From the NCBI GenBank assembly GCA_023957975.1, contig JAMLGM010000003.1, forward strand, positions 252,501 to 316,500: a stretch of DNA of 64,000 nt. The letters run 5' to 3'. The stretch comes from Microthrixaceae bacterium (lineage in GTDB: Bacteria; Actinomycetota; Acidimicrobiia; Acidimicrobiales; Microtrichaceae). Position 1 is the first letter of the stretch, and each line of letters begins with the position of its first letter. The position numbers and the translations under genes are program-made. A model generated the notes under the pieces. That model had not been told where the DNA came from and searched no databases. It worked only from the letters and a program-made list of their open reading frames with translations. Positions 12,488-14,722 of the stretch are shown one piece after another.

Positions 12488-12560
12488 TCGCGGGTAGTTC
12501 AATTGGCAGAACACCGGACTTTGAATCCGGTTGTTGCAGGTTCGAGTCCTGCCCCGCGAG
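12488..12560 (+). tRNA. tRNA-Gln (anticodon TTG)
   Basis: A cloverleaf can be folded. The acceptor stem is TCGCGGG (12488-12494) with CCCGCGA (12553-12559), with U1-A72 as usual for tRNA-Gln. The anticodon stem is CCGGA/TCCGG with loop CTTTGAA, giving anticodon UUG. The T arm is GCAGG-TTCGAGT-CCTGC. The discriminator is G, and CCA is not encoded. It reads CAA (Gln) codons and stands alone between the GT2 and glmU. Confidence 0.95.
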
Positions 12561-12609
12561 CATTCATCGATTCGTCCGCACGGATGATGCGGGCGGTGCC
12601 GGGGGCGCC

Positions 12610-13722
12610 GTGACCACAACAGTCGAGCAGCGACGTCCGCTCTACGCCGTGGTGCTCGCGGCTGGGGAAGGGTCGCGGATGAAATCCGAACGACCCAAAC
12701 CGTTGCACCGGTTGTGCGGGAAACCGATGCTGGCCTACGTCCTGGAGTCCCTCGAGACGAGTTCGGTCGATGCGATCGCCATCGTCGTGGGTCACAAGGC
12801 CGAGGTGGTGACAAAGAAGATCACCGAACATCCGCTGTCGACCGCACTGCATTTCGCTCACCAAGAGGTACAGCGCGGCACCGGAGACGCAGCTCAGATT
12901 GGCCTTGCCGGTCTGCCGGAGGATGTCGATGACGACAGCGACGTGATCGTCCTGCCCGGCGATGCGCCGCTATTGCGCGCAGAAACGATGCGCGAGCTCG
13001 TCGAGCGGCATCGCAGCAGCGGTGTGGCGGCGACGCTGCTGACCGCGGAGCTCGACGATCCGACCGGGTACGGCCGGATCGTGCGGGCCGCGGGCGGGGC
13101 GGTGGTCGACATCGTCGAACAAAAGGATGCGACCCCCGATCAACTCGCCATCCGCGAGGTCAACACGTCGATCTATTGCTTCAAACGTTCGCTCCTCACA
13201 CCGGCCCTGCGGCGACTCAGCCCGGACAACGCGCAGGGCGAGTACTACCTGACCGATGTCGTGAAGGTGCTTGCCAGTGCGGGCCATAGCGTCGACTCGA
13301 TGATCGCGCCCAACCCGGAGGAGGCTTCGGGGGTCAATGACCGGTTGCAGCTGTCCCATGCGGAGGCGGAGATGCGTCGCCGCACGAACGAGGCGTTGAT
13401 GCGGTCGGGTGTTTCGATGCTCGATCCGGCGACGACCTATGTCGAAACGACCGTGACCGTCGGCCGTGACGTGACGCTGTTTCCCGGTGTCGTCCTCCAG
13501 GGGCGAACGGTGATCGGCGAAGGCGCCGAGATCGGTCCGAACTCGCGCCTCGTCGACAGCGTGGTCGGACGCGACGCGATCATCGAGTCGACGGTCGCTC
13601 GAGGAGCGGTGATCGGCGACCGCGCCGTGGTCGGTCCATTCGCCTGGTTGGGCGCTGGGTCCGAGATCCCGTCCGACGCGGTCACCGGAGCGTCCTACAA
13701 TTCTGACACCGCCCAGCCCTGA
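12610..13722 (+). CDS. glmU: GlmU-type N-acetylglucosamine-1-phosphate uridylyltransferase, C-terminal domain truncated
   Basis: The uridylyltransferase half is complete: VVLAAGEGSRMKSERPKPLH (14-33), QRGTGDA (88-94), LPGDAPLL (115-122), GYGRIVR (153-159) and EVNTSIYCF (183-191). This domain makes UDP-GlcNAc for peptidoglycan. The left-handed beta-helix starts at about residue 275 but stops after four or five turns (ending VVGPFAWLGAGSEIPSD, 340-355). GlmU normally has ~450-490 residues. The missing part would carry the catalytic His and acetyl-CoA site for acetylating GlcN-1-P. prs starts 13 bases after the stop, so this is not a frameshift within the window. Start is GTG 12610. It lies upstream of prs in the usual actinobacterial order. 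Confidence 0.92.
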   Translation: MTTTVEQRRPLYAVVLAAGEGSRMKSERPKPLHRLCGKPMLAYVLESLETSSVDAIAIVVGHKAEVVTKKITEHPLSTALHFAHQEVQRGTGDAAQIGLAGLPEDVDDDSDVIVLPGDAPLLRAETMRELVERHRSSGVAATLLTAELDDPTGYGRIVRAAGGAVVDIVEQKDATPDQLAIREVNTSIYCFKRSLLTPALRRLSPDNAQGEYYLTDVVKVLASAGHSVDSMIAPNPEEASGVNDRLQLSHAEAEMRRRTNEALMRSGVSMLDPATTYVETTVTVGRDVTLFPGVVLQGRTVIGEGAEIGPNSRLVDSVVGRDAIIESTVARGAVIGDRAVVGPFAWLGAGSEIPSDAVTGASYNSDTAQP

Positions 13723-13735
13723 TCGGGAGTTGCTC

Positions 13736-14722
13736 ATGGAGCTCGTCACCAAGAAGCGTTTGCACCTCGTCGCGGGGCGTAACAATCGCCCGCTCGCAGA
13801 GGAGGTGGCGCAACGCCTCGATGTCTCGCTCGGACCGATCTCGGTGTCGGAGTTCGCCAACGGTGAGCTCCACTGCAAGTACGGCGATTCGATCCGCGGC
13901 TCCGACGTGTTCATCTTCCAGGGGCATTCCTCGACACCCGAACTGTCCATCAACGACGCGTTGATGGAGCACCTCATCATGGTCGACGCCGCCCGCCGCG
14001 CCTCGGCCAAGCGGATCACGGTCGTCGCTCCGCTCTACGGGTATTCGCGTCAGGACCGAAAGGCAGAGGGACGCGAGCCGATCACGGCGAAACTCATCGC
14101 CGATCTGTTCAAGGTGGCGGGTGCGAAGCGGCTGGTGTCAGTCGACCTGCATTCAGGGCAGATCCAGGGGTTCTTCGACGGCCCGGTCGATCATCTCACG
14201 GCGATGCCGGTTCTGGTGCAGTGGATGCAGGACAACCTCGGCGATACCGATCTGGTCGTGGCATCCCCCGACGCCGGCCGGGTGAAGGTCTCCGAGCGCT
14301 ACGCGAACCAGTTGCACGCGAACATCGCCATGGTTCACAAGCGTCGCGTGCGCGGTCTGAAGAACACCGTCGAAGCCAAAGATGTCGTCGGTGACGTCGC
14401 CGGCAAGGTGTGCGTGCTGATCGACGACATGATCGACACGGGCGGGACGCTGGTGGCCGCCGCCGAACTGCTGGCCGAACGCGGGGCGTCCAAGGTGTAC
14501 GCGGCTGCGACCCACGGAGTCTTCAGCGGTCCGGCGATCGAACGGATCGAGAATTCCGTGCTCGAGAAGGTCGTGATCACCAACACCGTCTACCAGCCGC
14601 CCCAGAACCGGATCGCGAAGATCGAGGTCCTGTCGGCCGCCGGCATCATCGCCGACGCGATCGATGCGGTGTTCGAAGACACGTCGGTGTCGGAGATCTT
14701 CCACGGCGAGAACCAGCACTGA
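13736..14722 (+). CDS. prs: Ribose-phosphate pyrophosphokinase
   Basis: PRPP synthase makes phosphoribosyl pyrophosphate from ribose-5-phosphate and ATP, feeding purine, pyrimidine, His and Trp synthesis and, in this window, the apt reaction. Visible motifs: SVSEFANGEL near the N-terminus, PYG-equivalent LYGYSRQDRKAEGREPITAK, the metal site DLHSGQIQGFFDGPVDHL, and the PRPP loop VCVLIDDMIDTGGTL. Length is 328 aa, normal for class I. ATG 13736 is preferred over an in-frame TTG at 13730, because GGGAG at 13725-13729 is well spaced for the ATG. It is probably co-transcribed with glmU. Confidence 0.96.
   Translation: MELVTKKRLHLVAGRNNRPLAEEVAQRLDVSLGPISVSEFANGELHCKYGDSIRGSDVFIFQGHSSTPELSINDALMEHLIMVDAARRASAKRITVVAPLYGYSRQDRKAEGREPITAKLIADLFKVAGAKRLVSVDLHSGQIQGFFDGPVDHLTAMPVLVQWMQDNLGDTDLVVASPDAGRVKVSERYANQLHANIAMVHKRRVRGLKNTVEAKDVVGDVAGKVCVLIDDMIDTGGTLVAAAELLAERGASKVYAAATHGVFSGPAIERIENSVLEKVVITNTVYQPPQNRIAKIEVLSAAGIIADAIDAVFEDTSVSEIFHGENQH

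Follow-up and report, generated by a model that had tools for sequence, protein, structure and literature searches.

The glmU locus and its retained half

The window examined here, a stretch of 64,000 nucleotides from the genome of a Microthrixaceae bacterium (order Acidimicrobiales), carries on its forward strand a truncated glmU (12610..13722) that starts with GTG and encodes 370 amino acids, made up of a uridylyltransferase domain and a left-handed beta-helix stub. A tRNA-Gln gene (anticodon ttg; 12488-12561, forward strand) lies directly upstream, and prs (13736..14722, forward strand), named as a ribose-phosphate pyrophosphokinase by resemblance, lies directly downstream. The glmU stop codon occupies 13720-13722 and the prs ATG begins at 13736, which leaves the gap of 13 bases counted in an earlier reading of these letters (hereafter the sequence-only reading); since prs starts so close to that stop, the missing ~100 residues do not lie in another frame.

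The uridylyltransferase domain (12643..13338, forward strand) spans residues ~12-243, equivalent to E. coli GlmU 7-227, and residues R18, K25, Q76, G81, D105, G140, E154, and N227 (E. coli numbering) are common to the window GlmU and all 31 of its truncated relatives. Together with the N-terminal profile match, these conserved residues identify the protein, as far as homology can, as a GlmU in its uridylyltransferase half, the half that the sequence-only reading had called intact. The leftover left-handed beta-helix turns (13402..13680, forward strand; ends set by eye from alignments) cover residues ~265-357, with a Hexapep match at 282-314. Compared with the NCBIfam glmU model (TIGR01173), the window protein covers profile positions 3-342 of 452, and its closest solved relatives are the GlmU of M. 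tuberculosis (query 13-362) and, at a lower rank, that of E. coli (query 12-360, matching E. coli 7-345). The final E. coli-aligned position in our multiple alignment is 355 and the distal residues are missing, which bears out the earlier claim that the beta-helix ends near residue 355, before the acetyltransferase site.

Loss of the acetyltransferase site

We aligned the GlmU of E. coli and the window protein with 31 truncated proteins of the same order, 7 shorter ones, and 32 full-length proteins from the rest of the class. The E. coli residues R333, K351, H363, Y366, N377, and K392, which we take to form the acetyltransferase site (a literature search on the six residue names found nothing), were invariant in 32/32 full-length proteins. 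In the truncated order proteins, the positions of H363, N377, and K392 were gaps in 31/31, that of Y366 was a gap in 30 and a valine in one, and those of R333 and K351 were mostly still covered and never held an arginine or a lysine. In the window, the position of Arg333 is kept and its residue mutated (codon 348, Gly; 13651..13653, forward strand). Since neither the window protein nor any of the 31 relatives keeps the active-site residues, the alignment rules out that the remaining turns form an acetyltransferase site like those known, and with it one of the two findings that the sequence-only reading had named as able to overturn it. The other, a second full-length glmU, was sought with TIGR01173 in the genome that holds the window (3.6 Mb, 98.8% complete), where none was found; there were 11 further matches, each of them partial and with a weak score (E 1e-12 or worse). 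With its acetyltransferase residues absent or changed, the window protein would thus not qualify as a bifunctional GlmU.

Truncation across the order Acidimicrobiales

The sequence-only reading had proposed a check of GlmU length in related genomes, and the 31 aligned order relatives proved to be 342-379 amino acids long (median 367). We then searched 296 genomes of the class, 96 of them from the same order, with the glmU model (match threshold E <= 1e-30). A GlmU match was present in 77 of the 96 order genomes, and all scored as truncated (best E 3e-110); full-length GlmUs of other orders, among the matches listed, reached at least 500 bits and E 1e-149 or better. With the window protein as query, 119/148 order genomes matched, and in 96 of these 119 the open frame did not exceed 430 amino acids and so could not hold a full GlmU. 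The remaining 23 had longer stop-to-stop frames, two of which were read (L055 and L057) and were both truncated; alignment ends in this search are uninformative, because the query itself stops at residue 370. As the lengths, scores, and open frames of the relatives agree, the truncation is not a sequencing artefact, and this free-living order as a whole appears to have lost the acetyltransferase half of GlmU.

Outside the order, some GlmUs of family f31 are truncated too, in a different way that leaves a shorter protein. Seven GlmUs of this family reach profile positions 2-244 at most and stop inside their contigs, directly after the uridylyltransferase domain (profile 239-244), with scores of ~1e-65 to 1e-70 in the glmU-model search. 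Partial matches in six other genomes (G183, G009, G098, G257, G119, and G191) were rejected as truncations, being contig-end fragments; a match in two pieces (G170) was left out of this contig-end reading. In trees of the uridylyltransferase domain, the f31 short forms fell far from the Acidimicrobiales forms, and full-length f31 proteins were placed among the short ones (98/83); the starred branches of the GlmU tree require two or more changes to account for the f31 group. Because the tree separates the Acidimicrobiales from the f31 short forms and intersperses the full-length f31 proteins, it suggests that the acetyltransferase half was lost separately at least two times in the class, and probably three or more.

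A candidate GNAT acetyltransferase

The sequence-only reading had also called for a search for a separate acetyltransferase. A listing of GNAT proteins (PF00583) gave 15 in the genome under study and 103 matches in nine small order genomes, and 105 of these 118 (all 15 of its own and 90/103 of the others; the 13 omitted were among the weaker, E 4e-7 or worse) were clustered. Over the ten order genomes, three groups occurred in 10/10 and one, c4, in 9/10. Candidate c4, a GNAT protein of ~145 amino acids encoded outside the window (G000:C1:415946-416404), was chosen before its distribution was known, as one of the four groups present in at least 9/10 genomes, and a class-wide profile was made for c4 alone among the four.

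In the 296 class genomes, 109 had a c4 match at E <= 1e-15 and 104 a strong one (E<1e-30), comprising 93 genomes of the order, 7 of f31, and 4 of f42; the five weak matches outside the order (E 1e-16 to 2e-21) were set aside as other GNATs. Strong c4 was thus found in 93/96 order genomes, with none in G122, G145, and G217. Outside the order, among the 183 genomes with a GlmU match, it was present in 7/7 with a short GlmU versus 4/176 others, and within f31 in 7/7 with a short GlmU versus 0/20 others (Fisher p 1.1e-6, a value that ignores relatedness). The distribution of c4 therefore follows the loss of the GlmU acetyltransferase half, on the basis of about three independent events: a phylogeny-aware test found 3 pairs, with c4 following truncation in ~2 and opposing it in none (median p 0.5), and it cannot reach significance with so few events. 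Four f42 genomes (G046, G050, G152, and G232) have a full-length GlmU and c4 together, possibly an intermediate state before loss.

The tree of c4 was poorly resolved. Record titles of c4 loci included Candidatus Microthrix, Aquihabitans, Ilumatobacteraceae, a Ferrithrix MAG, and many Acidimicrobiales; it is from these titles that we take the order sampled to be Acidimicrobiales. Two MAG contigs titled Acidobacteria (L334 and L336) also encode a c4 that is 60% identical to the copy in the genome under study, and are possibly mislabelled Acidimicrobiia. In 80 loci, read with flanks of up to 8 kb, c4 was not found near glmU, glmM, glmS, or prs; its usual neighbours were PAC2-like, Nudix-like, and GlnD-like genes (named by eye).

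No GlmU match at E <= 1e-30 was obtained for 19/96 order genomes (G258, G039, G059, G075, G126, G169, G181, G187, G202, G205, G211, G217, G242, G246, G248, G265, G271, G287, and G295), and 18 of these 19 carry c4. The match was missing from every sampled member of families f7 (4/4) and f12 (4/4), all of which carry c4. As GlmU is absent and all sampled members of both families are affected, another UDP-GlcNAc uridylyltransferase is expected in these genomes. A search for the eukaryote-type UDP-GlcNAc pyrophosphorylase (PF01704) gave matches in 0/40 genomes, and was uninformative since control genomes were likewise without a match.

Sequence and predicted structure of c4

Mean column identity in c4 was 59-60%, with invariant E-D-V and R-G-x-G motifs, and in an alignment of 35 rows (A2) both the acetyl-CoA loop R-G-x-G-x-G and the tyrosine of an L-Y-x-x-x-G-F motif were invariant. 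An AlphaFold2 model of a c4 relative (L277), made from A2, had a pLDDT of 95.2 and a GNAT fold; this predicted fold and the RxxGxG-type acetyl-CoA loop place c4 in the GNAT superfamily. By sequence, the best solved relative of c4 was 1z4e, a GNAT of unknown function, with GNA1 proteins lower, and the c4 protein of the genome under study reached no NCBIfam cut-off and matched only general GNAT families in Pfam.

By structure, the top Foldseek match of the model was 3fb3; its sequence is identical to that of 3i3g, and a table in a review (PMC4964394) gives the latter as T. brucei GNA1. The GNA1 proteins of C. parvum and C. elegans were within the first 43 matches. The VIA-align ranking put PaiA first (Z 18.1), with PaiA and others slightly ahead, and C. 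parvum GNA1 at Z 16.7, in a field of near ties; because PaiA outranks GNA1 there, the substrate of c4 cannot be read from the fold. Taken together, the modelled fold and the sequence allow, without proving, that c4 is an amino-sugar-phosphate acetyltransferase.

Proposed pathway and alternatives

GlmM in the genome under study exceeds its family cut-off and adjoins GlmS; with both present, the route leading to GlcN-1-P appears complete. The GlmM motif GGEQSGH was identical in 13/13 order genomes (the one under study included) and in the 8/8 others examined, and this unchanged motif suggests that GlmM still makes GlcN-1-P. The GlmS gene (L080:6521-10090, i.e., G000:C14:12521-16090, outside the window) encodes 1189 amino acids, about twice the usual length, with ~220 extra residues near the N terminus and ~300 at the C terminus that have no known domain.

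The sequence-only reading concluded that another enzyme must acetylate glucosamine-1-phosphate, or that the pathway differs; the lost site, the lack of a second full GlmU in this genome, the presence of GlmS and GlmM, and candidate c4 all support it, and add the extent of the truncation across the order and a named substitute, neither of which it contained. In our proposal, a bifunctional GlmU would have been reduced by loss of its C-terminal beta-helix acetyltransferase, its remaining N-terminal half would convert GlcNAc-1-P and UTP to UDP-GlcNAc, and c4 would acetylate an amino-sugar phosphate with acetyl-CoA. We consider that c4 very probably does the acetylation in place of the lost GlmU half. 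For the whole reading, in which c4 replaced that half with GlcN-1-P as the likelier substrate, likely is the appropriate word; this choice of substrate follows from the retention of GlmS and a canonical GlmM, and the favoured order would be GlmS, GlmM, c4 on GlcN-1-P, and then truncated GlmU. A broader version is tentative, and somewhat less probable than not: c4 would be a GNAT-family GlcN-1-P N-acetyltransferase that made several replacements in the class and is essential to the cell wall of the order, and in f7 and f12 another uridylyltransferase would complete the replacement of both GlmU halves.

The second choice is a eukaryote-like order, in which c4 would acetylate GlcN-6-P like eukaryotic GNA1 and GlmM would then act on GlcNAc-6-P. 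The GNA1 structures among the Foldseek matches, with that of T. brucei at the top, speak for it, as does the use of GlcN-6-P by GNA1 enzymes (PMC4964394). However, GNA1 is not closest to c4 by sequence, and the usual GlmM motif in all 13 order genomes gives no sign of adaptation to GlcNAc-6-P, and we therefore judge this order unlikely, though worth weighing.

It is less probable again that the correlation of c4 is incidental and that another acetyltransferase acts, such as c3, a PAT-like GNAT group found in 10/10 genomes. Three other GNAT groups are indeed at least as universal in the ten order genomes, but two of them, RimI-like c1 and MshD-like c2 (by eye), point to general functions, and chance would hardly produce the split within f31, few though the independent events are.

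A separate left-handed beta-helix acetyltransferase outside the GNAT superfamily might instead perform the step, given seven Hexapep_2 matches in the genome under study, several of unassigned function. In a search of this genome and the nine small order genomes with that single family model, however, the widest groups were DapD types (by eye) and one acyltransferase in 7/10, with none in 10/10, which makes such an enzyme highly improbable.

Slighter still is the chance that acetylation de novo is absent and that GlcNAc is imported or recycled, as was proposed for Rickettsia with NAG-1-P imported from the host, where GlmU is without its entire C-terminal domain (PMC5615194). Import of that type would go with absent upstream amino-sugar synthesis, whereas by homology GlmS and GlmM are both kept in the genome under study, and 12 further order genomes also have GlmM; moreover, the genomes measure 1.4-6.4 Mb, and we read their record titles as pointing to free-living bacteria.

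That the site was rebuilt in the remaining GlmU turns or in the extended GlmS is barely conceivable: the 1189-residue GlmS does have unassigned stretches, but none of the 31 truncated proteins keeps the E. coli residues at 363, 366, 377, and 392 or has R or K at positions 333 and 351, and the GlmS extension also occurs in genomes with a full-length GlmU and is absent from the listed order genomes of f3, f5, f6, f13, and f20. The giant GlmS was accordingly rejected as carrier of the lost activity, because its C-terminal extension, present in 115/296 class genomes, does not track GlmU truncation.

Comparison with known systems

UDP-GlcNAc is required for peptidoglycan; bacteria are generally considered to make it through GlmU, which is also regarded as a drug target. 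The order-wide loss of one GlmU activity, with a small candidate substitute, suggests that another fold can take over this step. It also bears on annotation, since family models wrongly call these GlmUs bifunctional: their best NCBIfam matches are so named, with scores below the cut-offs of those models.

The window GlmU shares with the bifunctional GlmUs described by TIGR01173 (e.g., those of E. coli and M. tuberculosis) the uridylyltransferase half and its conserved residues, and differs in lacking the acetyltransferase half beyond profile position 342 of 452. An engineered truncated E. coli GlmU, a fragment with the uridylyltransferase only, is active; that protein was made in the laboratory, whereas in this order a truncated GlmU occurs naturally. 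The rickettsial GlmU has likewise lost its acetyltransferase domain in nature, and import of NAG-1-P is proposed there (PMC5615194); here, by contrast, both GlmS and GlmM are retained, alongside a candidate GNAT. A truncated GlmU alone is therefore already known, and its combination with a GNAT stand-in in bacteria is apparently new: in a literature search that most subscription papers fell outside, no report of a GNAT replacing this GlmU half in free-living bacteria was found.

Acetylation of an amino-sugar phosphate by a GNAT is known in eukaryotes, where it is the work of GNA1. Like GNA1, c4 is a small GNAT with, in its model, the same fold, acetyl-CoA loop, and tyrosine, and by analogy it would catalyse the same reaction type with an amino-sugar phosphate as substrate. 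In contrast to GNA1, c4 is bacterial, does not have GNA1 as its closest relative by sequence, has a putative substrate, and is paired with a GlmU-type uridylyltransferase.
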